NCBI GenBank assembly: GCA_021811105.1
Contig: JAJZPM010000034.1
Coordinates: forward strand, 1-39,875
From: Nitrospirota bacterium
GTDB taxonomy: Bacteria > Nitrospirota > Thermodesulfovibrionia > Thermodesulfovibrionales > UBA6898
Length of the DNA: 39,875 nt
Direction of reading: 5' to 3'
Below, piece by piece: positions 1,655-33,912 of this stretch (positions within the stretch are counted from its first letter, which is position 1; each line of letters opens with the position of its first letter). The notes beneath the pieces are model-generated. The model saw nothing but the letters and a program-made list of their open reading frames with translations. It was not told the origin of the DNA and searched no databases. Both the position numbers and the translations under genes were made by a program.

Positions 1655-2332
1655 TCACTCGCCTTCGGCAGCTTCCGTAGGAGGCACCATATGCCGTATT
1701 ATCTTCCCCTCAACGAGATAGATCACCATTTCGGCGATGTTGGTGGCATGGTCGGCGAGGCGTTCCAGGTACTGCGCTACAAAGCTTATCTTCATAGCAC
1801 GATACACAGTGGTCGGGTCCTGGGCCATGAAGAACGCAAGTTCCTTCAGGACCTCATGCTTGAGGTCATCTACTTCATCGTCCCGCATGATGACGTCCAT
1901 CGCAAGCCTCTTGTCTTTTCGCACAAAGGCGTCGAGCGCGTCCCTCATCATTCCCTGGGCGATTTCCCTCATCCGCGGGATATCGATATAAGGCTTCAGG
2001 ATAGGCTCCTCATTCAGCTCGATTGCCCGCTCGGCGATATTCACGGCGAGGTCACCCATCCTCTCCAGGTCGGTTGTGATCTTCATCGCGGTGGTAATGA
2101 AGCGGAGATCGCCGGCCTTCGGCTGCCTCAGGGCGATAAGACGTATGGATTCCTCGTCGATCTCGACATCCAGCGTGTTGATCACTCGGTCGTTGTCGAT
2201 CACCAGCCGGGCGACTGCATTGTCCCTCTCCACGAGGGCCTGGATCGAATTTTTCAGCGCGTCTTCCACCAGGGAGCCCATTTTCAGGATCTTCTCCTTC
2301 AACTGCTGTAATTCATCGTCGAAAACGGTCAT
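1655..2332 (-). CDS. phoU: PhoU, phosphate transport system regulator
   Basis: A 225-residue protein with the two PhoU helical-bundle repeats. Each repeat carries the conserved acidic metal-binding signature; the first is seen as TDLERMGDLAVNIAERA near residues 87-103 and the second as QYLERLADHATNIAEM near 187-202. Length and pattern are normal for the family. PhoU couples the PstSCAB transporter to the PhoR sensor kinase and dampens phosphate uptake. Its ATG overlaps the pstB stop in a TAATG arrangement, so it is translated with the transporter as the last gene of the operon. No clear terminator is seen after it. Confidence 0.96.
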   Translation of the reverse strand: MTVFDDELQQLKEKILKMGSLVEDALKNSIQALVERDNAVARLVIDNDRVINTLDVEIDEESIRLIALRQPKAGDLRFITTAMKITTDLERMGDLAVNIAERAIELNEEPILKPYIDIPRMREIAQGMMRDALDAFVRKDKRLAMDVIMRDDEVDDLKHEVLKELAFFMAQDPTTVYRAMKISFVAQYLERLADHATNIAEMVIYLVEGKIIRHMVPPTEAAEGE

Positions 2333-3096
2333 TATCCGAACCTCCCGGTCACATAGTCTTCCGTCAGCTTTTCCGAAGGAGCGGTGAATATCCTGTCGGT
2401 CTTGTCGAATTCAATAAGTTCTCCGAGCATCAGAAAACCGGTCCAGTCGGATATCCTCGCCGCCTGTTGCATATTGTGGGTAACTATAACGATTGTCACC
2501 TCTTTTTTCAAGACCGCGGCCAGTTCTTCTATCTTCGCCGTTGAGATAGGATCGAGGGCGGACGTGGGTTCGTCAAAGAGCAGCACCTCGGGATTCACTG
2601 CCAACGCCCTTGCGATAACGAGCCTCTGCTGTTGCCCTCCCGAAAGCGCATACGCACTGGCGTTGAGCTTGTCCTTCACCTCGTCCCACAGCGCCGAATG
2701 CACAAGTGCCTTTTCGACTCTTTCCGAGAGGTCAGCTCTTTTTCTCACGCCCTTCAGCTTCAGTCCGTAGGCGATGTTGTCGAATATGCTCATCGGGAAT
2801 GGTGTCGGCTTCTGAAAGACCATCCCGATCCTGCTCCTGAGATTGATTAAATCCGTGCCGCCGGAAAGTATGTTGTCTCCCTGAAAGATGACCTCCCCCT
2901 GGTACCGGTTCCCTGGATAAAGGTCATGCATACGGTTGAAACATCTGAGCAGGGTCGTCTTTCCACAGCCCGAAGGGCCGATCAGGGACGTGACCGCGTT
3001 TTTGTAGACCGTCAGGTTTATCTTTTTTAGGGCATGGACATCCCCTGCGTAGTAGAAATCGAGTCCTTTGACCTCGAGTTCGATCTTTCCGGCCAC
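2332..3096 (-). CDS. pstB: PstB, phosphate ABC transporter ATP-binding protein
   Basis: ABC ATPase of the high-affinity phosphate transporter, about 254 residues. Visible motifs are Walker [10 protein letters not shown], signature LSGGQQQR, Walker B with DEPTSALDP and the switch His in IVTHN. The chosen start is GTG at 3096, which overlaps the pstA stop in TAGTG and has a GGTGGAGG ribosome site 8 bases upstream. Longer in-frame extensions would run into pstA and carry unrelated sequence. It energises Pi import through PstC and PstA at the inner membrane. Confidence 0.95.
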
Positions 3097-3935
3097 TATT
3101 TGTACCTCCACCTTATGATGAGCCTTCCCGTAATGGTAAGGAGAAGAATGAATACCGTGATCACAAAGGCCGCCGCCCATGCCTGAGCGTGCCAGTTATC
3201 GTACGGCCCCATGGCATACTGAAAGATCGTCACCGTTAGTGAGGCCACCGGTTGTTTCATGTCCAGCGAAAAAAAGGAATTGTTGAAAGAGGTGAACAGC
3301 AGCGGCGCTGTCTCGCCGGCAACCCGCGCGATGGACAGGAGAATGCCGGTAAGAATGCCGGTCGCCGCGCCCCGATAGACCACCTGGGTGATCACTTTGT
3401 AGTAGGGCGCCCCGAGTGCAAATGCCGCCTCCCTTAATGTCCAGGGCACGAGGGAGAGCATGTCTTCGGTTGTCCTCAGGACAACCGGGATCATGATGAT
3501 CGAAAGCGCGACGGCTCCCGCCCATCCGCTGAAATGACCGATAGGCCTGACCAGCACCGCATAGATGAAGGTGCCGATGACGATGGACGGGACGCTGACC
3601 ATGATATCCGAAAGAATGCTGATGATCCGCGCAATCCCGCGGCCCCTAGCATATTCCGCAAGGAAAGTCCCTCCCAGAACTCCGACAGGCACGCCTATCA
3701 ACGTCGCGCATACCGTGATCAGCAACTGCCCCACGAAGGCGTTTCTCAGACCGCCCCCCTCGACCCCGGGCGGCGCAGGATCATTCAAAAAAAGGCTGAG
3801 TTTCAGTGCCTTGATGCCGTGAACGAGCACGTCACCCAAAATGAAGACCAGCCAGAACAGGCCCATGAAAGCCGCAAGGGTGCTCAGCGTAAGCGCAATA
3901 AAACCTTCTGTTTTTCTTATCTGTTCTCTCGTCAT
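3096..3935 (-). CDS. pstA: PstA, phosphate ABC transporter permease
   Basis: A 279-residue inner-membrane permease with six hydrophobic segments. The binding-protein-dependent transport (EAA) loop region appears as [16 protein letters not shown] and is followed by the conserved [17 protein letters not shown], typical of PstA. The ATG overlaps the pstC stop by four bases (ATGA) and the stop overlaps the pstB GTG, so the operon is translationally coupled. It forms the channel with PstC. Confidence 0.95.
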
Positions 3936-4873
3936 CTAGAGTACTTCTTCTCTGCCCTCAGGAGAAAGAACTTGGCAATGGCAAGGGTGATAAAACTCAT
4001 CACGAAAAGGACGAGCGCAAGATAGAACAGAGACGATAAATAGATATCTGTATCAGCCTCTGTGAACTCGTTTGCAAGGGTGACCGTTATCGTCGCTGCG
4101 GCGTCAAAAAGAGACGTTGTAATCCTGTGGTTGTTCCCGAGGACAAATGCGACCGCCATGGTCTCGCCGAGTGCCCTTCCCAATGAAAGTACAATACCCC
4201 CGAATACGCCCAGCTTGGAATACGGGATCACCACATTTTTCACCACCTCCCATTTCGTAGCGCCGATCGCATATGCCGACTCCTTCACTACGGAGGGTGT
4301 GAGGTTGAATGAGTCCCTGGAAATACTTGCGGTGAAAGGGATGATCATAATGCTCAGGATGACGCTGGCGGTCAGGATATCGATGCCCATCGGAGTCCCC
4401 TGGAAGAGGATGCCCACCAGAGGGACTGATCCGAAAATCTTCTTCAGGAAAGGCTCTATATGGTTGCTCATGATCGGCGAAAGGGTGAAAAGCCCCCACA
4501 TGCCGTAGATAATGCTCGGGATGGCGGCAAGGAGTTCGATCGCGGCGCCGATTGGCCCCTTCAGGAAATTCGGAGAGATCTCGGTCACGAATATGGCGAT
4601 GCCTATGGCGACGGGTATCGCGATGACCAGGGAAAGAAGGGTGGTGAAGGCGGTCCCATAGACATTGGTAAGCGCGCCGAAAGATTCTTTGACGGGGTCC
4701 CAGTCGGTCGAAGAAAGGAATTTCCAGATGCCGAACTTCCCGATTGCAAGAGACGATTCGGACAAAAGGACATAAAGAATCCCGATGATGAGGATGATCA
4801 CGGAAAATGACGCGGCCGCCGTTACAAGGGAAAAAATATTGTCGACAGGATTCTTTTTAGCTGTCCTCGGCAT
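3932..4873 (-). CDS. pstC: PstC, phosphate ABC transporter permease
   Basis: An inner-membrane permease of about 313 residues. It shows an N-terminal membrane segment, the characteristic FLSSTDWDPV stretch, the GAAIELLAAIPSIIYGMWGLF core and the EAA-loop equivalent ESAYAIGATKWEVV followed by SLGRALGETMAVAFVLGN. ATG 4873 is used. A TTG three bases upstream (4876) is also possible and lies at slightly better distance from the GAGGAAAGG site. It is the second gene of the operon, separated from pstS by a strong hairpin. Confidence 0.95.
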   Translation of the reverse strand: MPRTAKKNPVDNIFSLVTAAASFSVIILIIGILYVLLSESSLAIGKFGIWKFLSSTDWDPVKESFGALTNVYGTAFTTLLSLVIAIPVAIGIAIFVTEISPNFLKGPIGAAIELLAAIPSIIYGMWGLFTLSPIMSNHIEPFLKKIFGSVPLVGILFQGTPMGIDILTASVILSIMIIPFTASISRDSFNLTPSVVKESAYAIGATKWEVVKNVVIPYSKLGVFGGIVLSLGRALGETMAVAFVLGNNHRITTSLFDAAATITVTLANEFTEADTDIYLSSLFYLALVLFVMSFITLAIAKFFLLRAEKKYSR

Positions 4874-4905
4874 CAATCGAAGCGCCTTTCCTCGAGATTA
4901 GAGAA

Positions 4906-4944
4906 GCAACGGGGCAGGTTGTGATTCCAAGCCTGCCCCGTTGC
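4906..4944 (-). promoter_or_regulatory. Hairpin between pstS and pstC (attenuator or mRNA-stabilising)
   Basis: A perfect 13-bp inverted repeat (GCAACGGGGCAGG at 4906-4918 with CCTGCCCCGTTGC at 4932-4944) with a 13-base loop lies in the pstS-pstC gap. On the transcribed strand the hairpin is followed by TTCTCTAATCTC, not by a real T-run. Partial termination or protection of the pstS transcript is therefore more likely than full termination. Such an element would give more PstS than permease. Confidence 0.7.
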
Positions 4945-4958
4945 GCCTTTGTACGATA

Positions 4959-5966
4959 TTAGATACCGTTTGCCTTCCAGTATGCTCTGATCTTGTCTTT
5001 CAAGGATTTCGGCAGAGGCACGTACACAAGCTCTTTTGCCTTTTTGTCGCCATTCTTGAAGGCCCAATCGAAGAATTTGACGACCTTCTTGTTGCTGTCG
5101 GTCTTTTCTTTTGCGAGAAGGATAAATGTCGCACCCGCAATAGGCCAGGCATGCTTGCCGGGGGCATTTACGAGCCAGAGATCAAAATGCTTTTTGGGGT
5201 CAAAATTCGCCGTAGCCGCCGCATCCTCAAAAGTCTTGAAATTCGGCTCTACGAAATTGCCGGCAGGGTTTTTGAGGAGTGTGTATGCCAGCTTGTTCTG
5301 CTCCGCATAGGCGAATTCGACATAACCGATGGAGTTCGGCGTTCTTTTCGTATAATTTGCCACGCCCTCATTGCCCTTGCCGCCGATGCCTACGGGCCAT
5401 TTCACCGATGTCCCTGCCCCCACCTTGTTTTTCCACGCAGGACAGACGCCGCTGAGATAGTTGGTAAATATCGCGGTGGTTCCCGAGCCGTCCGACCTGT
5501 GGACAACATTTATTTCGCTATGCGGGAGGTTCACCTTAGGATTTAAGGACTTGATCGTGTTGTCATCCCAATATTTTAATTCTCCAAGGTAGATGTTGCA
5601 GACAGCGTTGGAGTCGAGCTTCAACTCGCCTGCCTTGACCCCCGGGATAGTCACCACTGGGACAACCCCGCCCATGACGGCAGGGAATTGCAGCAGCCTG
5701 TCTTTCCCCAGCTGTTCAGGAGTGAGCGGCGCATCGGACGCGCCAAAATCCACTGTCCTCTCGGTGATCTGCCTGATGCCGCCTCCGGAGCCTATAGACT
5801 GATAATTGAGCTGGGCTCCCGTCACCTTGTTATAGTCAAACGCCCATGCGGAATACACGGGGTAGGGGAACGTAGCTCCCGCTCCATTGAGCAGTTCGGC
5901 TGCCTCCGCATGTGCAAAAGAAAAGACAAGTGCTAATGCCATCGCTAATTTCAGAAACATTTTCAT
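4959..5966 (-). CDS. pstS: PstS, periplasmic phosphate-binding protein
   Basis: A 335-residue protein with a signal peptide (MKMFLKLAMALALVFSFAHA). The mature start ELLNGAGATFPYPVYSAW and the phosphate-binding loops YQSIGSGGGIRQ, DFGASDAPL and RSDGSGTTAIFT are those of PstS. It captures Pi in the periplasm for PstCAB. It is the first gene of the pst-phoU operon, with an AAGGAGG site directly upstream of ATG 5966. A Pho-type promoter lies 30-80 bases upstream. Length is normal for the family. Confidence 0.97.
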   Translation of the reverse strand: MKMFLKLAMALALVFSFAHAEAAELLNGAGATFPYPVYSAWAFDYNKVTGAQLNYQSIGSGGGIRQITERTVDFGASDAPLTPEQLGKDRLLQFPAVMGGVVPVVTIPGVKAGELKLDSNAVCNIYLGELKYWDDNTIKSLNPKVNLPHSEINVVHRSDGSGTTAIFTNYLSGVCPAWKNKVGAGTSVKWPVGIGGKGNEGVANYTKRTPNSIGYVEFAYAEQNKLAYTLLKNPAGNFVEPNFKTFEDAAATANFDPKKHFDLWLVNAPGKHAWPIAGATFILLAKEKTDSNKKVVKFFDWAFKNGDKKAKELVYVPLPKSLKDKIRAYWKANGI

Positions 5967-5993: not shown

Positions 5994-6045
5994 ATTATAC
6001 TTCCATTGTTACAACAGTGTTACAAAAAGATTAAAAGTCTGTTAC
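5994..6045 (-). promoter_or_regulatory. Pho box promoter of pstS
   Basis: Read in the direction of pstS, four 7-mers begin exactly 11 bases apart: GTAACAG (6045-6039), TTAATCT (6034-6028), GTAACAC (6023-6017) and GTAACAA (6012-6006). A perfect -10 TATAAT lies at 5999-5994, six bases after the last repeat. The third repeat covers the -35 position. This is the arrangement of a PhoB/PhoP-activated promoter, and the core resembles the Bacillus TTAACA repeat. Confidence 0.9.
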
Positions 6046-6285
6046 ATGTCGCTTCCCTCCTTTGTGGCCGTATTTTCAACCTCGTCCCCTGTGCGAATAC
6101 TGCTTTCCAAAAACTCGCTCAATCAGCCGGAAGATGAAAAGATTGGGCTCCCACGTGAAAATCGCAATCGCCGCGAGTACGCAGGCGGAAATGCTCAGGA
6201 CTATCAAGAAAACCATGGTCTAAAATAGCATGTGAAATGTTACGGGAGTATTAACGGGAAGTTAAATTATGAAGAAGAGTCCTTC

Positions 6286-14532: not shown

Positions 14533-14614
14533 GGTGCGGTTTCCATAATCAACCACTCTATAGTGCTATCAAATGTCCTGGCGTGTCAAGGCTGGTGGAG
14601 TTTGCTCCCTCGCC

Positions 14615-14668
14615 GTAACCGAAATTTCATTCCCCCGTAATACTCGTGCAAAATCGCCTCCGTACAAT
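14615..14668 (+). promoter_or_regulatory. Pho box promoter of olsBA
   Basis: Four 7-mers start 11 bases apart: GTAACCG (14615), TTCATTC (14626), GTAATAC (14637) and GCAAAAT (14648). Eight bases then precede a -10 TACAAT (14663-14668). Spacing and order match the other Pho-type promoters of the window. The gene start is 40 bases downstream of the -10. Confidence 0.75.
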
Positions 14669-14708: not shown

Positions 14709-15494
14709 ATGGAAATGACAGGAGAAATTTTATCAGTGCACGGCCGGTTTGCCGTGAAGCTTGCGGAGGAAGGGCGCGAGGTCGAGTCTGCAATGAGACT
14801 TCGCTTCGAAGTGTTTAATAAGGAACTGAAGGAGGGCCTTCAGGAGTCTTATGTGACCGGCATGGACAGGGACAGGTACGACGACTACTGCGACCATCTG
14901 ATAGTGACCGAAGTGACAACCGGGAAGATAGTCGGGACCTATCGCCTGATGCGAAGTGGTGTTGCCGAGAACAGCGTTGGATTTTATTCCGAGACGGAAT
15001 TCGACCTTTCAGCAATCAAACGTATGCCTGGTGAAAAGGTGGAGCTGGGCCGCTCCTGCGTCCACAGGGACTACAGGAATGCCGCCGTGGTGGGGATGCT
15101 CTGGAAGGGTATTGCAGTCTACGTTGAAAGACATCGAGCGACCCATCTTTTCGGCTGTGGGAGTCTTCACTCGAAAAACCCTGCCGAGGTGAGCATGATA
15201 TACACGTATCTCAACCTTTTCCATAGGGCGGGGGCGCACTGCAATGTCCTGCCTCTCACCAGACTGGAAGAGGTGAGGGCGTTCTCCTGGTGTGAGAGGG
15301 AATCGGTTTTCCCCTTGCTGCCGCCTCTCATGAAAGGCTATCTCCGTGTCGGCGCGGAGATATGCGGGGAACCGGCGTACGACCCCGTATTCGGCACAAC
15401 CGACTTCTTCATCCTGCTCGACACGCAGAAGCTCCTCGGACGTTACCGGCGGAGGTTCTTCAGCGAGGACAAAGAGCCTCTATGTGCAGCCTGA
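14709..15494 (+). CDS. olsB: OlsB-like ornithine N-acyltransferase (GNAT family)
   Basis: 261 residues. Recognisable features of the OlsB / hemolysin-like acyltransferase family are EVESAMRLRFEVFNKEL near the N-terminus, DHLIV with a GTYRLM strand, ELGRSCVHRDYRN, and the FGCGSLHS ... A segment with SMIY. OlsB transfers a 3-hydroxyacyl group from ACP to ornithine to give lyso-ornithine lipid at the inner membrane. The overlap with an OlsA-type acyltransferase gene supports this role strongly. AAAAAGGAGG lies upstream of ATG 14709. The Pho-type promoter fits the known induction of phosphorus-free ornithine lipids under phosphate limitation. Confidence 0.85.
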   Translation: MEMTGEILSVHGRFAVKLAEEGREVESAMRLRFEVFNKELKEGLQESYVTGMDRDRYDDYCDHLIVTEVTTGKIVGTYRLMRSGVAENSVGFYSETEFDLSAIKRMPGEKVELGRSCVHRDYRNAAVVGMLWKGIAVYVERHRATHLFGCGSLHSKNPAEVSMIYTYLNLFHRAGAHCNVLPLTRLEEVRAFSWCERESVFPLLPPLMKGYLRVGAEICGEPAYDPVFGTTDFFILLDTQKLLGRYRRRFFSEDKEPLCAA

Positions 15495-16279
15495 GAAGGA
15501 CGTATAAGACGGTCTTTCTTATCCTCCTTGGTCTCGCAGGTTTTATCGCAGGAATTCTTATCAGCATGACCACGGGAGGCGGCAAGGGCGTTCGCGTACG
15601 GGTGAGATGCATGTCGCTCTGGATGCGGTGCGCTTGCGTGATACTCGGCATTCGCATCAGGAAGGAGGAACTCTGGGACATCCCGCGGGGATCGTTTATC
15701 GTGGCCGATCATTGCAGTTATCTCGATATCCTCATCCTCGGCAGTCTTACGCCGGCCGTGTTTGTGGCTAAAAAAGAAGTCGCGTCGTGGCCGTTTATCG
15801 GAAGTCTTGTGCGGTCTGCGGGCACGGTGTTTGTGGACCGTGCCTCGCGCTTGTCCATGCCGCTGACCATCAGGGAGATCGAAAATCGCCTTTCCTCCGG
15901 AGTCAGCGTCATCGTATTTCCGGAAGGAACGACCGGCAACGGGGCGGAAGTCCTCGAATTCAAGAGTTCATTCTTTACTGTCCCGGTCGATAAAAACTGT
16001 GTCCTGCTGCCGGTGAGCATCGTATATTTACACGTAAACGGCGAAATATTGGACGCACAATCGAGAGATGCGGTTGCATGGTATGGGGGCATGAGTTTTT
16101 TCCCGCACCTATGGAACGTGCTGGGGATGCGCAGGATTGAGGTAACCGTGCGCGGGAATCCCGCGGTCCGCGACATCATCACACTGGATGCTTCGTTGGC
16201 GAGAAAGCAGCTCGCCGCCTATGCCCGAAGAAGCGTCAAGGCGGGGTTCGATGCCCTGTCGACAAGTTCAACCCCCTAG
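15482..16279 (+). CDS. olsA: OlsA-like lysophospholipid/lyso-ornithine lipid acyltransferase
   Basis: 265 residues. An N-terminal membrane segment (about 9-29) is followed by PlsC-family motifs: HCSYLD (H77-D82, the HX4D catalytic pair), VDRAS (~118-122) and FPEGTT (146-151). It acylates lyso-ornithine lipid made by OlsB, or lysophosphatidate. ATG 15482 overlaps the olsB end by 13 bases. A longer upstream extension exists but only translates olsB DNA in another frame. The coupling to olsB makes ornithine-lipid synthesis the best call. Confidence 0.85.
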   Translation: MCSLRRTYKTVFLILLGLAGFIAGILISMTTGGGKGVRVRVRCMSLWMRCACVILGIRIRKEELWDIPRGSFIVADHCSYLDILILGSLTPAVFVAKKEVASWPFIGSLVRSAGTVFVDRASRLSMPLTIREIENRLSSGVSVIVFPEGTTGNGAEVLEFKSSFFTVPVDKNCVLLPVSIVYLHVNGEILDAQSRDAVAWYGGMSFFPHLWNVLGMRRIEVTVRGNPAVRDIITLDASLARKQLAAYARRSVKAGFDALSTSSTP

Positions 16280-22801: not shown

Positions 22802-23416
22802 ATGGAAACTCTTTCCGATATATCCGCACTTTTCAGCCGGTTTTCCTATGCCGGCATTTTTTTGAGTTTGATTCTCGGAAGCGTGGGCTTCCCCTTTCCC
22901 GAGGACGCGATCCTCATGTGCAGCGGCCTTCTCATCGCCCGGGGAGTGCTCAGTCCTGCACCTGCCCTCGCGACGGTCTTTGCGGGGATGGTCATAAGCG
23001 ATCTTATTATCTTTTCGTTAGGCAGACAGTATGGTCGCCGGATCGTCATTCATAAATGGTTCGGCAGGATAATATCTGCGGAAAGACTGGCCTCGATTGA
23101 GGGCCGATTCAATGCTCATGGGATATGGGTCATTCTGATCGGCAGACAACTGATAGGAATCCGGTCACAGATGATCCTGATGTCCGGAATTATGAGGGTC
23201 CCGGTACTCCGCTTTCTCGCTGCGGATGCCCCTGCAGTTCTTGTTACCATGGGCATAATGATTACAGCAGGTCACGCGGGCGGTAAGGTATGCAACGGGA
23301 TCTCCGGTATTAAGGAGACAATGCTGATTGCTCTGATTGTGCTTTTTGCAGGCGTCTGCATCTTTTTTTTGCTGATGCGGCTGAGAGCAATGTTCCGTTC
23401 CAGCGTGGGCGACTGA
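22802..23416 (+). CDS. DedA family membrane protein
   Basis: 204 residues with the DedA/VTT fold: an N-terminal helix, the re-entrant GSVGFPFPEDAIL motif with its acidic pair, DLIIFSLGRQYGRR, and the second signature LIGRQLIGIRSQMILMSG. It ends with two or three membrane helices. DedA proteins move lipids across the inner membrane (undecaprenyl phosphate or phosphatidylethanolamine in known cases). The Pho-type promoter suggests a part in lipid handling during phosphate limitation. ATG 22802 follows a modest CAGGCCGGA site and lies about 20 bases from the predicted transcription start. Confidence 0.88.
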   Translation: METLSDISALFSRFSYAGIFLSLILGSVGFPFPEDAILMCSGLLIARGVLSPAPALATVFAGMVISDLIIFSLGRQYGRRIVIHKWFGRIISAERLASIEGRFNAHGIWVILIGRQLIGIRSQMILMSGIMRVPVLRFLAADAPAVLVTMGIMITAGHAGGKVCNGISGIKETMLIALIVLFAGVCIFFLLMRLRAMFRSSVGD

Positions 23417-24474: not shown

Positions 24475-24672
24475 TTATCTCTTTCTCATGATCTTCGCCA
24501 GGAACATCGGGCAGTTGTCGTAATTCTCACTGAAGCAATACTCCTTCCTGTTATGAGGCCCGACAATCATGGATGAGAGCGAGGCGGCGCAAATATTTTT
24601 TTCCCTGTCGCTGAACGGACAGTTAAAATCGTCGGGCATGTCCCTGTATGTTGAACGTTGCAGCAAATACAT
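24475..24672 (-). CDS. Small four-Cys protein (family member D), 65 aa
   Basis: ATG 24672 follows a strong CAGGAGGAG site. The product starts MYLLQRSTYRDMPDDFNCPF and has cysteines at 18, 28, 46 and 54 (x9, x17, x7), the last in CPMFLAK. It lies 14 bases behind the glycosyltransferase, hence in the same operon. A longer open frame continues upstream into the glycosyltransferase gene, but only as an out-of-frame reading of it. Confidence 0.75.
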   Translation of the reverse strand: MYLLQRSTYRDMPDDFNCPFSDREKNICAASLSSMIVGPHNRKEYCFSENYDNCPMFLAKIMRKR

Positions 24673-24686
24673 GGATACTCCTCCTG

Positions 24687-25907
24687 CTAGTATTTTGACA
24701 ATGCCAATCTTGTCTTTATCGCTGTCACGATCCTCGGTCTCCACACCTTCAAGCCCGTCTCGGGGTAGGGAAAAAGCAACGAGTCCTTTCCGATAATATA
24801 CCGGTTTCCCCTCCATGCGACCGTATTGCTCAGCACCGGGACAAACCAGAGCGACCCGATGACGAGGTCTTTGAAAGGGGTGAATGCATAAAGCAGCGGG
24901 TGCATATCGGCCCCGAGCCGATTTCCCAGATAATAATCGCGGGCTATTTTTGTCACGCTTGTTGCCGCGGCAAGGAAAAGCGACAGTTTCGTAAACGGAA
25001 GGAAGATCAGCGGTATAAAGGACATAAACACGGCGTTGCTGAGCAATTCGGGAAAATACTTCGCTCCCCCTATCTTCCACCTGAGCTTGCCCCACCTGGT
25101 ATGCCTGTTGATGAACTTTTTTACGCCCCAGTATTCGTTGACGTTGTTGATCACGTGATTGGAGAGCAGGACTTTTTTTCCGAGCCTGTGGATCCTTTCG
25201 CCGATGATATAGTCTTCGGCAAGCAGGTCCTTGACCGCACCGAATCCCCCGATGGCCTCAAGGTCGTCCTTCCTCATGAGCATCGATTTCCCGATGACGC
25301 AGGGCATCCTGAGATACTTGTCGAGAAAGCAGACGCTGCCCACTATGAAGGAATTCAGGTGGAGGTTCTCGAGAACGGCGCCGACAGACCGGCCGCTTAT
25401 TCCCCTGATCATGTTGCTGACGAGTCCTACGGACGCGTCAGCCATGTGGCGTGAGATGTCGCTCAGATAGTCCTTCTCCACGCGGACGTTGCTGTCGCTT
25501 ATAAGTATGAGATCGTATTTGGCTTTTCTGTAAGCCGGGATCAGGTTGTTTACCTTGGGGTTCAGCCCTTCATCACAATGTTCGACGACAATACATATGT
25601 CTCTTGCAGGGTACTTATCCTTTATCTTCTTTACCACTTTATAAGCCGGGTCGTTCTGGTTCTGGAGGGCGAAAATGAGCTCGTACTCCGGATAATCCAG
25701 ATTACAAAAGCTTTCGAGATTATCGAAGAGTCCGTCATCAAGACCCTTGAGCGGTTTAAGGATTGAGACTGGAGGAAAAGATCGGGGAAAGCGCATGCCT
25801 TCCCCTGAGTGGGGGGGAGCAGTATATGACCGCACAGCAATCATTTGAAACAGATATCCGATTATCCCAAAGAGTGTAATGCCTGCAAATATCCAAAATA
25901 AAATCAT
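24687..25907 (-). CDS. Family 2/21 glycosyltransferase, HpnI/ceramide glucosyltransferase-like
   Basis: 406 residues with an N-terminal membrane helix, a GT-A catalytic domain and C-terminal hydrophobic segments. Motifs include PPVSILKPLKGLDDGL, the FALQNQNDPA strand, SDSNVRV (DxD-like), CVIGKSMLMRK, a LAEDYIIGERI acceptor-site Asp, and RHTRW, the (Q/R)xxRW of GT21 enzymes. Such enzymes add a sugar to ceramide, hopanoid or diacylglycerol. ATG 25907 follows TAGGAGG, which overlaps the PHP stop. With the PHP gene and Pho-type promoter, a glycolipid made under phosphate limitation is the best reading; hopanoid GlcNAc transfer (HpnI) is the main alternative. Confidence 0.85.
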   Translation of the reverse strand: MILFWIFAGITLFGIIGYLFQMIAVRSYTAPPHSGEGMRFPRSFPPVSILKPLKGLDDGLFDNLESFCNLDYPEYELIFALQNQNDPAYKVVKKIKDKYPARDICIVVEHCDEGLNPKVNNLIPAYRKAKYDLILISDSNVRVEKDYLSDISRHMADASVGLVSNMIRGISGRSVGAVLENLHLNSFIVGSVCFLDKYLRMPCVIGKSMLMRKDDLEAIGGFGAVKDLLAEDYIIGERIHRLGKKVLLSNHVINNVNEYWGVKKFINRHTRWGKLRWKIGGAKYFPELLSNAVFMSFIPLIFLPFTKLSLFLAAATSVTKIARDYYLGNRLGADMHPLLYAFTPFKDLVIGSLWFVPVLSNTVAWRGNRYIIGKDSLLFPYPETGLKVWRPRIVTAIKTRLALSKY

Positions 25908-25916
25908 GTCCACCTC

Positions 25917-26609
25917 CTAATTTCTGAAGAGCGTCATCGCGACACCCTTGTTATGTCTGATGCACTGTTTTATGGAGTCTACGTCTTTAGCGCAGTTGAG
26001 GAGAGTCTTCCAGGAGTACAGATGTCTCGGTTTGTGGAAATCGCTGTTTGCGATGTATGGATATTTCTTGAGGCTGATGACGTTGAAGACGTCGTCCCTG
26101 TTGGCGATCTCCCAGGCGTCGATAAAACGGGCATACTTATCCCTATTGTTCCAGAGGAAGAGTGTGTCCCTGTCGGTCTTTGCCGACATATAATGCGGGT
26201 GGCAAGCTATCGTCAAGGCGCTCTGTTTTTTTGCCTCCAGGAATATCTCTTCATAACTTATGCAGGCCGGGATAAAGTCCTGGACATCAATGATCAGCAT
26301 GTGGGCTGAGTTGTCTGAGGTGAGATGGTTCTTGGTTATTTCAATTCCTGGAATAACGAGCATGTCATATTTGTTCCGGGCCCTTTCCGCTTCTTCCTTT
26401 ATATGAGAGATATATTGGCTAAAGTTGGCGGCTGTCACAGAATACTTAAAACGGTGTGCGAGCTTGCCCAGCGGATTATCACCATTCACCACATGGTCTG
26501 TTATTGCAATAACGTCGAAGCCTGCCTGTCCGAAGAGATCAATCGTCCTTTTCAGCTCTACCGAGCCGTCTGAATAAGTGGTGTGGATATGGAAATCACA
26601 CAGCAGCAT
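25917..26609 (-). CDS. PHP-domain metal-dependent phosphoesterase
   Basis: 230 residues forming one PHP domain: CDFHIHTTYSDGS (H7, H9, D14), ITDH (second metal motif), PGIEIT, then ACHPHYM and IANSDFHKP near the C-terminus. Metal ligands are complete. No signal peptide or membrane segment. PHP proteins hydrolyse phosphate esters; the substrate is not visible. The nine-base gap to the glycosyltransferase and the Pho-type promoter suggest that it supplies an acceptor (for example by dephosphorylating a lipid) or recycles phosphate; this is inference. Confidence 0.87.
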   Translation of the reverse strand: MLLCDFHIHTTYSDGSVELKRTIDLFGQAGFDVIAITDHVVNGDNPLGKLAHRFKYSVTAANFSQYISHIKEEAERARNKYDMLVIPGIEITKNHLTSDNSAHMLIIDVQDFIPACISYEEIFLEAKKQSALTIACHPHYMSAKTDRDTLFLWNNRDKYARFIDAWEIANRDDVFNVISLKKYPYIANSDFHKPRHLYSWKTLLNCAKDVDSIKQCIRHNKGVAMTLFRN

Positions 26610-26660
26610 CGGCCTGCTTTATTCGACGTTTTATTATCATGATGCTTATATGGTAGTGAG

Positions 26661-26703
26661 TTTAGATTGCAGGAATATGAAACGGAGGTTACATTCCCGT
26701 TAA
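26661..26703 (-). promoter_or_regulatory. Pho box promoter of the PHP-glycosyltransferase operon
   Basis: In gene direction: TTAACGG (26703), GTAACCT (26692) and TTCATAT (26681), 11 bases apart. Eight bases then precede TCTAAA (26666-26661), a weaker -10. The repeat order equals that in front of the second phoB-like gene. Confidence 0.6.
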
Positions 26704-26710
26704 ATGTGAA

Positions 26711-27060: not shown

Positions 27061-28986
27061 TTACAGGACCTTCACAAAAATAGGGTTGCTATAGAACCAG
27101 AGATCGTCCCAGGCCATGTCTGCATTGTTGGTGCCCGGTGTATTAAGCAACGGGCTGCCGGCGGCATCGGTCCCATACACGATTTTTGTGTTCGTAGCAT
27201 CCATCTTACTCACGCCATAACCGAGATTCGTGCCGCGGATACGGAAGAACATGCTGTTCCGGACATGAGGCACAACAAAGGTCATGGTGGTGAAGCCTTC
27301 ATCATCAATGCTCCATGAAGATGCATCGAAGGTTTCAACAATACCGGCAACGGTGCTGTCGATGGCGTTGAAAGCCGGATTCGGGGTCACGCCGTCAGCA
27401 AGGAACTTGTTCGCCCTGGTTGGGTTGATGCGGCCTTGGATCAGCTGGACGTGGTGGACTGCAGGCGGAGCGCAGACGTAGCTGCCCGAGGCGTTGATGC
27501 CGGCCTGGCAGTTATTGCTGTCAGGCGTCCTGAACCTGATCTGAACGGTGATTTTTTCTCCTTTTCCGACAGAAAGGGTTTCACCCATGGTAGCGCTGCT
27601 GTCGCCGGAGGGCGCTCCGTGGAAGACCCTGAAGTAGAGTTTGTTGATCAGATCTCCGTGGACGGAGAAGGCGTTGCCGGAGCGGAGGCCGTTTATAACG
27701 TCCTCCTGGGCGTAGACTCCGTCGCCGCTGGCATCCTTCACCTTTACGTAGGTCTTCTCATACTCTCCGGGCCAGAAGTCGCTGGATGTGCTATGGAAAT
27801 CCGAGCTGTCGAAGTTGAAGAACTTGCGGCCGTCTGCCAGCAGGTTGTCCCAGAGGCCGCCAACCGTGGCGATATAAGTGCCGGCCCCTCCGTAGGTGCC
27901 GCCGCCGCATGCTCCCGTACCAAACTCACCGCGATTCGATGACTTATCGTGCCCGGGAATCCCCTCGAAGCCGAAGGCCACCGACGGTCCGTTGTCGTTC
28001 ATATCGCGGAACGCGGCGATGGACCAGCCGCCCACGCCGCAGCCTGCCCTCTCGACATGTGCCGGGATAAGGTAGCCGGTGGCGGGGTAGTTGGCCTGCA
28101 TCCACTTGACGCCGTCTAAGGTCTTGTTATGCTTTGCGTTCTGGGCGAGTACGGCTGAATAATCGGGATAGGCAGGAGAGGTGTAGCTGCTGCTCTGGAC
28201 CTTGCCGTCCCACCCCATGATCGTAGCCGTAGTAGTAGTTGTCGTGCCGTCGGTGTCGGAGTTGTCGAAGCGGTACTCAAACTCCGCGATCGGTAGGGCG
28301 TTGTCGGCGGCGATCGCTGTGCTTGCGTGTTCGTGGCCGGGTACGTTCCATTCCATCCCGGTAATCACGATCTTGTCAGGATAATTGGCTCGGATGCTTT
28401 CGATCCAGTCGTAAGCACCCATGTACGCGGGTCCGGCGTAGAACGGAATGTCGGATGTACGGATAAGGGACTGCCAACGCCACATCTTGCCATTGGTGGG
28501 GTCCCCGATTGCCGGAAGGGTCGGGTAGACGGTCGTGTCGGTCCAGTTCCTGCCGAAGCCGTCCCGTGATTGGATACCACCGTGCTCGGAGTTTGTGAAG
28601 AAGCCAAGACCGTTCCTGAAGGCGGTGGGCGCAGTACCCTGCTTATACAGTCCGCTGGTATCCGATACCGCGAACGGGGTTATCGTGGTAGGCCCGGTCA
28701 GATCGTTCATAGGATAGCTGCCGTCGGTAAAGGTGGTGTGGTTGTGGAAATCGCCGATCATCCATTTCCCGGCGCAGTGTCGATCTCCGTGCTCATGTTG
28801 ATCGTCACGCTCGTGTCGATCTTCACGACAGGAATATTTTTCACTATTCTCAACATCCGGTCTGCTGGAAGAGGCGGAACCCGCGCGTTGCTCTGCGTGG
28901 GACACTCCTGCGCCGGAGACCAGGGTCACGGCAAACAAGCCGGCGAATAAAGATGTTTTGATACGATTCCATGTGCCAATATTCAT
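27061..28986 (-). CDS. Secreted PHP-domain protein with His/Asp-rich N-terminal region
   Basis: 641 residues with a signal peptide (MNIGTWNRIKTSLFAGLFAV to about residue 31). Residues 52-73 are very rich in His, Asp, Glu and Arg with two Cys (CREDRHERDDQHEHGDRHC), then the PHP-like motif GDFHNHTTFTDGSYP (H81, H83, D89). NSEHGG, TGMEWN, IPAHVE and FDSSDFHS follow as further metal motifs. The C-terminal ~200 residues resemble a beta-rich domain. A periplasmic or outer-surface metallo-phosphoesterase is likely, but the substrate is unknown. AAAAGGAGAG precedes ATG 28986. No phased Pho-type repeats were found upstream. Confidence 0.8.
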   Translation of the reverse strand: MNIGTWNRIKTSLFAGLFAVTLVSGAGVSHAEQRAGSASSSRPDVENSEKYSCREDRHERDDQHEHGDRHCAGKWMIGDFHNHTTFTDGSYPMNDLTGPTTITPFAVSDTSGLYKQGTAPTAFRNGLGFFTNSEHGGIQSRDGFGRNWTDTTVYPTLPAIGDPTNGKMWRWQSLIRTSDIPFYAGPAYMGAYDWIESIRANYPDKIVITGMEWNVPGHEHASTAIAADNALPIAEFEYRFDNSDTDGTTTTTTATIMGWDGKVQSSSYTSPAYPDYSAVLAQNAKHNKTLDGVKWMQANYPATGYLIPAHVERAGCGVGGWSIAAFRDMNDNGPSVAFGFEGIPGHDKSSNRGEFGTGACGGGTYGGAGTYIATVGGLWDNLLADGRKFFNFDSSDFHSTSSDFWPGEYEKTYVKVKDASGDGVYAQEDVINGLRSGNAFSVHGDLINKLYFRVFHGAPSGDSSATMGETLSVGKGEKITVQIRFRTPDSNNCQAGINASGSYVCAPPAVHHVQLIQGRINPTRANKFLADGVTPNPAFNAIDSTVAGIVETFDASSWSIDDEGFTTMTFVVPHVRNSMFFRIRGTNLGYGVSKMDATNTKIVYGTDAAGSPLLNTPGTNNADMAWDDLWFYSNPIFVKVL

Positions 28987-29204: not shown

Positions 29205-29405
29205 ATGAGTATTGTAGTGGACTTCTATTACGCGGTGATGAAGGAGGGATTAAGTCTTTATGAAGATTTTGCCGTGGATTCCCGCTCGACAACCATGCTC
29301 GTTGTTGAATGGACGCAGAGCAGCGATATCAACCGGCGGAAGAATGACTTAAGGCGGATGCGCCGGGGGATGTTGATCGATTCAGAACTTCCTATTCTTG
29401 ATTAG
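29205..29405 (+). CDS. Possible small protein, 66 aa (doubtful)
   Basis: An open frame starting MSIVVDFYYAVMKEGLSLY with an acidic, then Arg-rich C-terminal half. It has no convincing ribosome binding site and its last 24 bases overlap the end of the glycosidase gene on the other strand. It is the only candidate gene in the stretch 28987-29381, which otherwise shows nothing beyond the leader of the secreted PHP gene. Composition is protein-like, so it is listed with low confidence. Confidence 0.3.
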   Translation: MSIVVDFYYAVMKEGLSLYEDFAVDSRSTTMLVVEWTQSSDINRRKNDLRRMRRGMLIDSELPILD

Positions 29406-30659
29406 GTATGAATAATATGCGGCGGCATTGGTCGGTATGCGCCGGAGGGTGTCGAAATCGACCCGGTAGAGGCCGAAGCGCGCGTCGAGCCCCTGGAGCC
29501 ATTCGTAGTTGTCTATCAGAGACCAGTAGAAGTAGCCCCTTATGTCCATGCCCCGCTCCCTGCACCGTTCGACCGCGTCAAGATGTTCCTTCATAAAGGC
29601 GATCTTCTTCTGGCTGTCCCTGGTGGCGATGCCGTTTTCGGTAATTATCAGGGGGACGTCCAGTGCGGACGCGTATCGCAGCACCTTCTCGAGCCCGCGG
29701 GGGTGGATCTCCCATCCCATGTCGGTGAGGCCCCGGCCGTCGATGTCGAGATGCCTCATCTCGACACCCATCTTCTTGAACGGATTGAACCGCATATGGA
29801 TCCTCGTGTAATAATTCACGCCGAAGAAGTCGAGCTTGCCTTTGATCGGCACAGGAATTACCAGTTCTTCTTTAAAGGGGAATTTGATCCTTAGTGACCC
29901 CGCTAAAAAGGCATCAAGCAGAGAGTGATTGTAGAAATATTTCGCAACTCGCGCAAGGAGTTTGTCCAGAGGGTTCCATCTCTTCCAGGGGGCAAGCGCG
30001 GCCATATTGTGCGCCACACTCACCTGAGCGTCCGGACATCCGGCATGGATGATATCATACGCCGCTGCGTGGGCCGTGAGGATGTTTTTCAGCGCCCTGA
30101 CCCCGAGGGGAACATTCTTCAGCGCGGGCGGGGTGCATCCCTCGAAATAGCCGGCAAGGACCAGGACATACGGTTCGTTGAAGGTGATCCAGTAACGGAC
30201 GCCCCTCAGGGCGGGAAGTATTTTCTCGACGTAGCGAAAAAAATGCTCGACCGATGCATCTTCATGCCAGGGGTATTTCTTGATGAACCAGAGTGGATGA
30301 GTGAAGTGATGCAGGGTCACCATCGGCTCTATGTTGTCTCTCCGAAGGATATCGATGATCTCCTGATAGTGTGCAACGGCCCCTTCGTCCCATACTCCTT
30401 CGCGAGGCTGTATCCTGCTCCACTCCAGGGAGAAGCGGTAGGCATTTACGCCGAGATTTCTCAGGAGGGCAAGATCTTCCCGGTAAAGTTCATAGTGATT
30501 GGTGACTGTCGGCTTGGCACTTAATATCTCGTCCCAGGACGTCCAGTCGGCATGCGGCGAGCCCTCGAGCTGAAAGGCGGAGGTGGCCACCCCCCACAGA
30601 AACGGCGTCCTGCGCGACCCCGGAGATCCGGATCCTGGGGCAGGGGAGGGACCGGGCAT
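29382..30659 (-). CDS. Glycoside hydrolase family 1 (beta-glucosidase-like)
   Basis: About 425 residues with GH1 hallmarks: FLWGVATSAFQLEG near the N-terminus, FSLEWSRIQP, the acid/base glutamate in WITFNEP, and the nucleophile in IITENGIA. The C-terminal YFYWSLIDNYEW is followed by ARFGLYRVDF. No signal peptide, so it acts on cytoplasmic beta-glycosides. It begins ten bases after the second phoB-like gene; ATG 30659 is used, though a TTG at 30698 overlapping that gene has a start-compatible context. Co-transcription with the regulator is likely. The substrate might be a glycoside or glycolipid; the sequence does not tell. Confidence 0.9.
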   Translation of the reverse strand: MPGPSPAPGSGSPGSRRTPFLWGVATSAFQLEGSPHADWTSWDEILSAKPTVTNHYELYREDLALLRNLGVNAYRFSLEWSRIQPREGVWDEGAVAHYQEIIDILRRDNIEPMVTLHHFTHPLWFIKKYPWHEDASVEHFFRYVEKILPALRGVRYWITFNEPYVLVLAGYFEGCTPPALKNVPLGVRALKNILTAHAAAYDIIHAGCPDAQVSVAHNMAALAPWKRWNPLDKLLARVAKYFYNHSLLDAFLAGSLRIKFPFKEELVIPVPIKGKLDFFGVNYYTRIHMRFNPFKKMGVEMRHLDIDGRGLTDMGWEIHPRGLEKVLRYASALDVPLIITENGIATRDSQKKIAFMKEHLDAVERCRERGMDIRGYFYWSLIDNYEWLQGLDARFGLYRVDFDTLRRIPTNAAAYYSYLIKNRKF

Positions 30660-30669
30660 TTCTTTTGAG

Positions 30670-31389
30670 TTAGTCTCCTTTGAGAAGGTGGTCTTCAAAG
30701 TAATAGCCGTGGCCTCTTCTTGTCTTTATATAAACCGGATTTGCGGGATCGTCTTCTATCTGTGTGCGTATCCTGCTGATATGGACGTCGACGGTCCTCG
30801 GCTCGACATACCCCTCGTCTTTCCAGACTGCGTTCAGGAGTTGTTCGCGGTTGTATATCTTGCCCTTCCTTTCCACAAGGAACATAAGGAGCTTAAACTC
30901 CGTAGGACTGAGGCTGAGCGTCACGCCCCTCTTCATGACGGAATACGTCTCGGCATTGATCACAAGGTCGCCGACGGAGATCTGCTCTTCGTTTGAAGGC
31001 GTCTTTGTGGACCGTCTTAATACAGCCTTGATGCGCGCGACGAGTTCTCTCACGCTGAACGGCTTCGTCAGGTAATCGTCTGCGCCCATCTCGAGGCCGA
31101 GAATCCTGTCCACCTCATCTGTCTTTGCGGTAAGCATGATGATCGGGATGTTTCTTGTCTTCGGATCGTTCCTCAGTATGCGGCAGAGTTCCATGCCCTG
31201 CATGCCAGGCATCATCAGATCCAGTATCACGATATCGAATATTTCCCCCCTGACCTTTTTCAGCCCCTCTTCGCCGTCCGTCGCTGCGGAGACATCGAAC
31301 CCTTCCCGTATAAGATTATAGGACAGGAGTTCAACGATGTCTTGTTCGTCGTCCACCACGAGTATTTTCTGTCTGCCGGCCCTGCTCAC
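30670..31389 (-). CDS. PhoB-like response regulator (second copy)
   Basis: About 239 residues. Receiver domain (LVVDDEQDI, phosphoacceptor Asp in VILDLMMPG, MLTAK, LTKPF) plus an OmpR/PhoB winged-helix domain (LSPTEFKLLMFLVERKG, EPRTVDVHISRIRTQIEDD). It is highly similar along its whole length to the regulator at 33211-33912, so the two are paralogues. The start is uncertain: GTG 31389 or GTG 31407. It has its own Pho-type promoter, lying against the end of the kinase gene. Confidence 0.92.
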   Translation of the reverse strand: MSRAGRQKILVVDDEQDIVELLSYNLIREGFDVSAATDGEEGLKKVRGEIFDIVILDLMMPGMQGMELCRILRNDPKTRNIPIIMLTAKTDEVDRILGLEMGADDYLTKPFSVRELVARIKAVLRRSTKTPSNEEQISVGDLVINAETYSVMKRGVTLSLSPTEFKLLMFLVERKGKIYNREQLLNAVWKDEGYVEPRTVDVHISRIRTQIEDDPANPVYIKTRRGHGYYFEDHLLKGD

Positions 31390-31435
31390 CTCACAGTATT
31401 CTCGCACGCATGCGTCATAACGAGAGTATACGAAG

Positions 31436-31478
31436 AATGTATTGCGGCAGTGTGAAAGGATTGTTACATTTCGGTTAA
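31436..31478 (-). promoter_or_regulatory. Pho box promoter of the second phoB-like gene
   Basis: In gene direction: TTAACCG (31478), GTAACAA (31467) and TTCACAC (31456), 11 bases apart. Eight bases then precede TACATT (31441-31436), a weak -10. The box overlaps the last four bases of the kinase gene. Confidence 0.6.
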
Positions 31479-33214
31479 ATGAGAATTCTTACCTTTGTGC
31501 CCTTGCCTTGCACGCTCTCTATCTTCATGCTCCAGCCATGGGCCTTCACCAGGTGTTTGACGATCGCAAGCCCGAGTCCGGTGCCTCCCATCTTCCTCGA
31601 CCTGGCGGGATCGACCCTGAAGAACCTTTCGCCGAGTCTCGGCAGCAATTTAGCCGGGACCCCAATGCCGGTGTCCTCGACAAACAGGAAGGGACTTCCC
31701 GTTTCCCTGCCGCTATCGATGCCGAAGCTCACCCCGCCGGTCTCTGTAAACTTGATCGCGTTATCCACCAGGTTGGTGAGTATCTGGAGAAGCCGGTTCC
31801 TGTCCGCATCGACCTGCAGAAGCGACGGGTCTGCCTCAATCCTCAGGAAGAGGTTCTTGGCGGAGGCCTTGGCCCTGAACAGTTCGGCGATATTCTCGAA
31901 TACTCCCTGCACGTCAGTAAGGGTCTTTTCGACCTTGATGACACCGAGCTCTATCCTCGAGATCGTCATCAGGTCATCGACGAGCGCATTGATACGTTCG
32001 CTGTTCGATTTTATCGTCTGCACGAACCTTGCCGCATTGTCCGGATCGGACAGGGCGCCGTCAAGGAGGGTGTCCGCAAATCCCATGATCGCGGTGATCG
32101 GCGTCTTCAGTTCGTGCGAGACATTTGCGACAAAGTCTTTTCTGACTTGCTCGAGTTTCTTGATCTCGGTGATATCGTGGAAGACCGCGACAAAACCGGA
32201 GAGCTCGCCTTCTCTGTAAAAGAGAGGGGAAACCCTGACGGCCAGATGTTTTTCGTCGGGAGATTCGATCGTAAACTGAGACATGCCGGGGACGCGGTTT
32301 TTTCGCACTTCTTCGATCAGCGTGGTGAACTCATGGTTTCTCACGACTTCGGCAAACAGCGCGCCCGCCGGAGGGACCTCGCCGAAAAAATCCTTCACCG
32401 ATGCGCTCGAAAGCGTCACAATGCCCCTTGCGTCGATGATCAGGAGGGCATCAGGCACGCTCCTGAGGATGACACTCAGCCGGTTTCTCTCCTCTTCGCC
32501 CTGCGCCATCATCTCCTGCAGCGCCGCTGACATCGCGGTAAGATTGTCCGCGATTTCGGTAAATTCGCCCGCCTTCTTCAGAAAAAGTCTTTTGTCTATC
32601 TCCCCTTTCGATAAAGATCGGGAAAAATCCGTTATCTGGTGGAGCAGTCTCCTTAGATGGTCGGTCTGCCAGACCGAAACGGCCCACGTTACGAACAAGA
32701 CGGCGAGCATGACAAATATGATCTTCAACCTGAGGAGGTTTACCGCCACGTCGATCTCCTTCAGGGGCACGGCAAGCCTGATGAAACCCTCTTCGGTCCC
32801 GTCATGACTGATCTTTTTTGCCACGTAAAGGAAGTCGTAATTCAGCGTGTCGCTATGCCGGACCACGAAGCCGGTGCCGAGGAGAGCAGCCTGCTGCACC
32901 TCGGTGCGGCCCGCATGATTCTCCATGGTGGCCGAATCATGATCGGAATCGCCGATGACCTTTCCGTCCATGAGAATCACGGTTACCCGCGCGTGGACCT
33001 CGCTTTTCAACGTCCTGCAGAGATCATCGATGTCGGGCTTATTGAAGGGGACCGTCTGTGCGATGAGGCTTATCGTCCCGGAGAGATGCTCCTTCAGATT
33101 GTCGATATAATTTTCCCTGACGGCCGAGGTAATGTACAGTTCCGTAAAGAGCCCTGCCATCAGCAACACGACGGCGTAGACCAGAAAGATCCGCCTGAAT
33201 ATCCTTACCTTCAT
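31475..33214 (-). CDS. phoR: PhoR-like sensor histidine kinase
   Basis: 579 residues. TM1 (~8-28), a periplasmic or extracytoplasmic region of about 130 residues, TM2 (~161-182), HAMP (~183-235), PAS (~245-350), HisKA with H367 (NVSHELKTPITAI), then N-box NLVDNAIKF, DTGIGVP and GTGLGLAIVKH. This is the PhoR/PnpS layout with a real sensor loop. ATG 33214 overlaps the upstream regulator stop (ATGA). With two PhoB-like regulators around it, and Pst/PhoU in the window, phosphate sensing is the clear inference. Confidence 0.9.
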   Translation of the reverse strand: MKVRIFRRIFLVYAVVLLMAGLFTELYITSAVRENYIDNLKEHLSGTISLIAQTVPFNKPDIDDLCRTLKSEVHARVTVILMDGKVIGDSDHDSATMENHAGRTEVQQAALLGTGFVVRHSDTLNYDFLYVAKKISHDGTEEGFIRLAVPLKEIDVAVNLLRLKIIFVMLAVLFVTWAVSVWQTDHLRRLLHQITDFSRSLSKGEIDKRLFLKKAGEFTEIADNLTAMSAALQEMMAQGEEERNRLSVILRSVPDALLIIDARGIVTLSSASVKDFFGEVPPAGALFAEVVRNHEFTTLIEEVRKNRVPGMSQFTIESPDEKHLAVRVSPLFYREGELSGFVAVFHDITEIKKLEQVRKDFVANVSHELKTPITAIMGFADTLLDGALSDPDNAARFVQTIKSNSERINALVDDLMTISRIELGVIKVEKTLTDVQGVFENIAELFRAKASAKNLFLRIEADPSLLQVDADRNRLLQILTNLVDNAIKFTETGGVSFGIDSGRETGSPFLFVEDTGIGVPAKLLPRLGERFFRVDPARSRKMGGTGLGLAIVKHLVKAHGWSMKIESVQGKGTKVRILI

Positions 33215-33912
33215 AGTGCCGCATCCACGTAATATCCGATGCCCCTTTTCGTCCTGAGGTATTTCGGATTTGCGGGGTCGTCCTCGATCTGGGTGCGCAG
33301 CCTCCGCACATGTACGTCGACCGTCCTCGGCTCCACGAACGCCTCGTCTTTCCATACCGCATCAAGAAGCTGGTCGCGATTGAAGACCTTGCCCTTTTTC
33401 TCGACAAGGTAAAGCAGCAGCCTGAATTCTGTTGAACTGAGGGAAAGGGGTAGGTCCCGCTTCGTTACCGTATAGGTTTCCTTGTTAATCGTGAGATCGC
33501 CTATGCGTATCACCTTTTCGTCTTCTTTCTTGCCCGAGGTCCTTCTCATGACCGCCCTTATGCGGGCAAGAAGCTCCCTTGGACTGAACGGCTTGGTCAG
33601 ATAATCGTCGGCGCCGACCTCGAGGCCGAGTATCTTGTCGACCTCTTCGCCCTTGGCGGTAAGCATGATGATCGGCAGGTTTTTCGTTTTGGGATCGTTC
33701 CTGAGGACCCGGCAGATTTCCATTCCGGGCATGCCGGGCAGCATGAGGTCGAGGATAATGAAGTCGAACTTCTCTTCCCTTATCTTTGCGAGCGCATCTT
33801 CGCCGTCAGAGGCAGAGGACACGATAAATCCCTCTTTTTGCAGATTGTATGCGACAAGCTCCACAATGTCGGGCTCATCGTCAACGACCAATATTTTTTC
33901 CTGATAAGTCAA
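33211..33912 (-). CDS. phoB: PhoB-like response regulator (first copy)
   Basis: 233 residues: receiver (VVDDEPDI, phospho-Asp in FIILDLMLPG, MLTAKG, YLTKPF) plus a PhoB-type DNA-binding domain (LSSTEFRLLLYLVEKKG, RTVDVHVRRLRTQIED). TTG 33912 is the probable start. The stop overlaps the phoR ATG by four bases, so regulator and kinase are translated together. It is the likely activator binding the 11-base repeats seen at nine promoters here. No phased repeats lie in front of this copy. Confidence 0.9.
   Translation of the reverse strand: MTYQEKILVVDDEPDIVELVAYNLQKEGFIVSSASDGEDALAKIREEKFDFIILDLMLPGMPGMEICRVLRNDPKTKNLPIIMLTAKGEEVDKILGLEVGADDYLTKPFSPRELLARIRAVMRRTSGKKEDEKVIRIGDLTINKETYTVTKRDLPLSLSSTEFRLLLYLVEKKGKVFNRDQLLDAVWKDEAFVEPRTVDVHVRRLRTQIEDDPANPKYLRTKRGIGYYVDAAL

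Follow-up and report, generated by a model that had tools for sequence, protein, structure and literature searches.

Membrane lipid remodelling is one of the main ways in which bacteria save phosphorus, and phosphorus-free lipids are abundant in groundwater and sediments. The closest described systems to the locus presented here are the PlcP-Agt and PlcP-Pgt pairs of Sinorhizobium, Agrobacterium and marine Alphaproteobacteria, in which a Pho-boxed phosphoesterase lies directly before a lipid glycosyltransferase, and ornithine-lipid genes belong to the same regulon. Agt is a member of glycosyltransferase family GT4. Pgt, a processive GT21 enzyme making membrane glycolipids, is phosphate-regulated in Mesorhizobium (M. 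loti) and Agrobacterium, and bacterial GT21 enzymes have been described as synthesizing glycosyl-diacylglycerols (PMC8231724, PMC3972451). The Agrobacterium pgt promoter contains a predicted Pho box, and Pgt products are beta-linked; the enzyme takes both ceramide and diacylglycerol, with preference for the latter (PMC3972451). In some bacteria plcP is located just before the glycosyltransferase in one operon, and the gene serves as a marker of lipid remodelling, for example in ocean surveys (PMC4796936). Among anaerobes, Desulfovibrio alaskensis G20 replaces phospholipids with glycolipids and ornithine lipids at low phosphate, through a GT4 Agt homologue and OlsF; a PHP protein is not mentioned in that work (PMC5193443).

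The locus studied here is carried by a 39,875-nucleotide contig of a 3.94 Mb Nitrospirota genome, referred to in full length as the window, and the nearest relatives of this genome are Nitrospirota genomes from metagenomes. On the minus strand, open reading frames follow one another in the order phoB, phoR, phoB2, GH1, PHP2, PHP and GT21. The PHP gene (25917-26609) codes for a metal-dependent phosphoesterase of 230 residues, and the GT21 gene (24687-25907) for a membrane glycosyltransferase of about 406 residues. The first-pass annotation had described the two genes as lying nine bases apart, and this distance holds for the ATG at 25907, which is preceded by AGGAGGTG; an alternative GTG start at 25913 would shorten the gap to three bases. 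The lower bound given there, position 24475, falls beyond the glycosyltransferase gene, which already ends at 24687.

Absent from that annotation was the complete Pho locus in the remainder of the window. It comprises pstS-pstC-pstA-pstB-phoU (1655-5966, minus strand), identified as open reading frames in an order kept in relatives, as well as phoB-phoR, phoH and the ornithine-lipid pair olsB-olsA. On the plus strand, the OlsB-like acyltransferase (14709-15494; PF13444, 116.7 bits) is followed by an OlsA/PlsC-like acyltransferase (15362-16279; PF01553, 82.9 bits) whose true start is probably near 15500. The regulators phoB (33211-33912) and phoR (31475-33214), both on the minus strand, were assigned from open reading frames and synteny, the former also from its 68% identity to phoB2 (30670-31407, minus strand). 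The latter scores 271.5 bits against the PhoB model TIGR02154, below the cut-off of 296; phoR is thus flanked by two related phoB-type regulators. The exact order phoB-phoR-phoB2-GH1-PHP-GT is found in L048/L133 and L128, from which the window deviates only in the insertion of PHP2. This gene (27061-28986, minus strand) codes for a large PHP-like protein of 641 residues with a partial, below cut-off match to the CehA/McbA model NF038032 and no match in Pfam. Its N-terminus resembles a signal peptide, and the protein is apparently secreted. Its position between GH1 and PHP is seen in the window only, and a 77% identical homologue follows the glycosyltransferase gene in a Deltaproteobacterium (L080).

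A scan of species genomes yielded 79 loci with this PHP protein. GT21 follows PHP, with GH1 usually before it, in about 35 loci of Nitrospirota and three of Deltaproteobacteria, and Pst, Pho or Ols genes occur near PHP in many loci. Full-length PHP was found in 25 out of 61 related genomes, adjoined by GT21 in all 25.

To characterize the promoter of the pair, we trained a matrix on pstS promoters from the same group of organisms. These promoters contain three to four 7-base half-sites of consensus TTGTAAC at 11-base spacing. In the window, the array before pstS (6008-6047, minus strand) is composed of ATGTAAC, TTTTAAT, TTGTAAC and TTGTAAC, separated by AGAC, CTTT and ACTG. An array of the same build, four half-sites at 11-base spacing, precedes PHP at 26666-26705 on the minus strand, at -96 from the start codon; its half-sites ATTTAAC, ATGTAAC, GTTTCAT and CTGCAAT are separated by GGGA, CTCC and ATTC. 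It scores 22.4; against 400 dinucleotide shuffles this gives p=0.0025, the minimum that this number of shuffles allows. With the pstS-only matrix, all 43 loci showed an array before PHP at p<=0.05, and 39 of them also at p<=0.01; as these promoters belong to related organisms, the tests are not independent. Windows drawn at random from these loci include Pho promoters and are too strict as background, so shuffles and upstream regions of other genes were used instead. For 135 such regions the 95th percentile was 12.6, in comparison with a median of 23.0 for PHP (Mann-Whitney p=2e-20). A stronger argument is the register of the array: relative to the start codon it stands mostly near -63 or -96, in loci whose PHP proteins are only 54-90% identical. 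An E. coli-style Pho-box matrix gave weak support, since the local half-site is TTGTAAC/TTTCAT and not CTGTCAT; the native matrix resolved the array. The Pho-type box noted in the first-pass annotation was thus confirmed, conserved PHP-glycosyltransferase pairs next to such boxes, for which it had suggested a search, were found, and with a PhoB-type array in its promoter the pair is very probably under Pho control.

Two further sites were recorded in the window. A Pho array lies upstream of olsB (14613-14641), and a Pho-box-like site, ATGTAACAATCCTTTCAC, upstream of phoB2 (31452-31469, minus strand), where 0.7% of random windows score as well. The latter could serve phoB2 and GH1 together. Upstream regions of GH1 itself contain an array in only two of 35 cases under the pstS-trained matrix, which indicates that GH1 is mostly without a Pho box of its own.

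Characterised PHP enzymes are phosphomonoesterases, nucleases or cyclic-phosphate esterases, and we know of none that acts on a lipid. The window protein matches PF02811 (33.4 bits, cut-off 26.4), has no transmembrane segment and is expected to be cytosolic. Its ligand set (HxH, D, H, E, H, H, DxH) is complete and assigns it to the PHP superfamily, TM0559 type; the residues H7, H9, D14, H39, E90, H103, H137, D190 and H192 are invariant in 33 sequences from several phyla. The closest solved structure is TM0559 of Thermotoga (PDB 2anu; phmmer E=1.9e-58, approximately 42% identity), a member of the same family in which the metal ligands are conserved. The AlphaFold model (pLDDT 89) matches it over the whole length with a TM score of about 0.9 (0.89-0.91). 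Only passing mentions of TM0559 were found in a literature search, and a search of the open, non-subscription literature found no paper in which phosphate starvation, glycosyltransferases and lipids are brought together with PHP domain proteins.

The first-pass annotation had proposed that PHP is a non-homologous stand-in for PlcP, in analogy to PlcP-Agt. In a Pfam search the window protein gives no match to PF00149, only to PF02811, and hence is not a calcineurin-like PlcP; the two phosphoesterases share neither sequence similarity nor a Pfam family. On three alphaproteobacterial plasmids, of Gemmobacter, Fuscovulum and Pannonibacter, GT21 comes directly after a gene annotated as UDP-2,3-diacylglucosamine diphosphatase. 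Because of its calcineurin-type motifs and of published plcP-glycosyltransferase operons (PMC4796936), this gene is taken to be a PlcP homologue. One lineage therefore has a calcineurin-type enzyme in the slot before GT21 and the other has PHP, which is the best argument for a stand-in, and a positional one. When one such alphaproteobacterial protein, chosen by annotation and context instead of the experimentally characterised S. meliloti PlcP, was used as a query, no homologue was found in 59 of the 61 genomes; the other two gave weak matches of 28%, and of these G058 carries the pair. The lack of a convincing PlcP homologue in genomes with the pair accords with the proposal; the glycosyltransferase precedent had to be changed from the GT4 enzyme Agt to the GT21 enzyme Pgt.

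Taken together, we favour, with moderate confidence, a Pho-induced operon that remodels phospholipids into beta-glycolipids, with PHP as the likely step supplying diacylglycerol. We infer each chemical step and substrate in the following scheme. Scarcity of phosphate would lead PhoB to bind the tandem Pho box and switch on PHP and GT21. PHP would then take the phosphate-bearing head group off a phospholipid, or phosphate off phosphatidate, leaving diacylglycerol and recovered phosphorus, and GT21 in the membrane would join diacylglycerol with the sugar of a UDP-sugar to form a beta-linked glycolipid in place of the phospholipid. The GH1 enzyme would trim, transfer or later remove the beta-linked sugar. 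That the glycosyltransferase makes a membrane glycolipid is probable. PHP would act in one of three candidate ways, as phospholipase C, as phosphatidate phosphatase or as head-group phosphatase. Gene position, regulation and the intact metal site give diacylglycerol supply by PHP about an even chance, and its assignment specifically as a phospholipase C is tentative. Similarly tentative is the most far-reaching version of the proposal, in which PHP acts inside the cell as a genuine phospholipase C or phosphatidate phosphatase that Nitrospirota recruited independently to replace PlcP, forms a reversible module for exchange of phospholipid and glycolipid with GT21 and a membrane-acting GH1, and, TM0559 included, scavenges phosphate across several phyla.

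The alternative that survives best concerns the substrate of PHP. The enzyme might dephosphorylate the head group once it is released, as phosphoethanolamine or glycerol phosphate, or another soluble ester within the Pho regulon, with GT21 making its glycolipid from diacylglycerol provided by other enzymes. Small phosphate esters are the substrates of most PHP enzymes, and phosphatases acting on the phosphoalcohols made by PlcP have been described as unknown (PMC3972451). Outside Nitrospirota the PHP family is also found near Pho genes. Chlorobiaceae have it in many such loci, with GT21 absent and sometimes with a calcineurin-type phosphoesterase at its side, so the Pho link of the family is broader than its glycolipid link and the PHP reaction need not involve glycolipids. 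An anammox PHP gene that follows phoH, near a probable glycerophosphodiesterase and a phosphatase-like gene, points in the same direction. Against this, PHP is placed directly upstream of GT21 in every PHP-bearing relative, the position of plcP elsewhere, and neither a convincing PlcP homologue nor another source of diacylglycerol was identified. We consider a head-group or soluble-ester phosphatase rather unlikely.

Two of these neighbourhoods deserve description in their own right. In L085, L089, L104 and other Chlorobiaceae loci, PHP is followed by the calcineurin-type phosphoesterase and by PlsC-type and GNAT/FeeM-like acyltransferases, possibly a Pho-linked aminolipid cluster. The anammox locus belongs to Anammoxibacter (L091, 2033-6705).

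The remaining alternatives concern the acceptor of the glycosyltransferase. The protein matches PF13506 (Glyco_transf_21, 161.6 bits), has hydrophobic segments at both the N- and C-terminus, and carries the GT21 pattern D..D..(Q/R/H)xxRW in the motifs DSN, AED and RHTRW. Its nearest relative in structure databases is a ceramide glucosyltransferase (26qf, E=1.4e-45). This, together with the acceptance of ceramide by Agrobacterium Pgt (PMC3972451), would allow another lipid acceptor under phosphate limitation, either ceramide, as in Caulobacter, or polyprenol; since Pgt favours diacylglycerol and the adjacent phosphoesterase fits diacylglycerol supply better, we regard such an acceptor as improbable.

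The best NCBIfam match of the glycosyltransferase is the hopanoid enzyme HpnI (TIGR03472), with 246 bits, below the cut-off of 310, and identity to HpnI is about 30%. A tree was built from PHP-linked glycosyltransferases, true HpnI proteins of hopanoid clusters and alphaproteobacterial GT21 proteins. All PHP-linked sequences form one clade (support 100/99), apart from HpnI (96/89). They also fall outside the alphaproteobacterial Pgt-type clade, to which the window protein is about 25-28% identical, and are nearer to HpnI, although the long branch between the PHP-linked and the alphaproteobacterial sequences leaves the deep order of the tree uncertain. Of the 25 genomes with the pair, four have hopene cyclase, as do five of the other 36, without association (Fisher p=1.0); in the remaining 21 of the 25 it was not found. 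In two genomes (G042 and G029), a true HpnI beside the cyclase coexists with a PHP-linked glycosyltransferase, and a third (G030) contains both on different contigs. For the family as a whole, identity with HpnI was thus rejected, on account of the score below cut-off, the separate clade and the lack of co-occurrence with the cyclase. The first-pass annotation had named as refuting its reading a hopanoid gene set elsewhere in the genome with the glycosyltransferase clustering as HpnI; the gene set exists, and the clustering was not observed. The window genome has hopene cyclase within a hopanoid cluster on another contig (L125, 6886-18442) with hpnA, F, G, H, J, K and N; hpnI is absent from this cluster and no HpnI was found elsewhere in the genome. 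HpnI precedes HpnK and HpnJ in the pathway, so with hpnJ and hpnK present and HpnI missing, the glycosyltransferase may have a second role there. Although the best profile match and this incomplete cluster speak for a hopanoid glycosyltransferase with PHP as an accessory phosphatase, the own clade, the 21 of 25 genomes without cyclase and the three genomes that hold both enzymes make this very improbable.

Another locus (L178) has, next to phoR- and pst-like genes, a further GT21 that belongs to the PHP-linked clade and is 64% identical to the window protein; it is situated at the contig edge, so that any partner upstream is out of view.

In addition to its separate GT21 clade, the proposed remodelling operon differs from the PlcP-Agt and PlcP-Pgt systems in having a GH1 beta-glycosidase attached as a third member of the module, a membership not noted in the first-pass annotation. 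The gene (29382-30698, minus strand; PF00232, 271.5 bits) overlaps the end of phoB2. GH1 occurs in 23 of the 25 genomes with the pair and in one of the 36 others (Fisher p=2e-13), including genomes in which it is not adjacent. Both catalytic motifs, TFNEP and ITENG, are present in the window protein, and among 28 GH1 sequences the NEP motif is found in 26 and the TENG motif in all. Its closest solved relative, sharing both catalytic glutamates, is 1vff (E=4.9e-90). Plant SFR2, a GH1 enzyme transferring sugars from one galactolipid to another, offers a looser comparison in function. The 1vff protein, BGPh, is a membrane-bound beta-glycosidase of Pyrococcus with preference for long-alkyl beta-glucosides (PMC4687101), and differs from the GH1 of the module in having no link to phosphate. 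As Pgt products in Agrobacterium are beta-linked (PMC3972451), a beta-glycosidase could act on the GT21 product. Trimming of glycolipids, sugar transfer or reversal of the glycosylation are possible roles, and the enzyme is suggested as a new part of glycolipid turnover.

If PHP can replace PlcP, surveys based on plcP only would miss this route in Nitrospirota and perhaps in other anaerobes of groundwater and sediments. The proposal, if true, would also assign a function for the first time to a widespread PHP family with a crystal structure (TM0559, 2anu), and a phospholipase C or phosphatidate phosphatase activity would make PHP the first lipid-acting enzyme of its kind.

A membrane protein of the VTT type is encoded near the pair in the window (22802-23416). 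VTT/DedA-type membrane proteins also lie 3' of the glycosyltransferase gene in alphaproteobacterial PlcP-GT21 operons (L179, 5129-5701; L180, 4977-5552).
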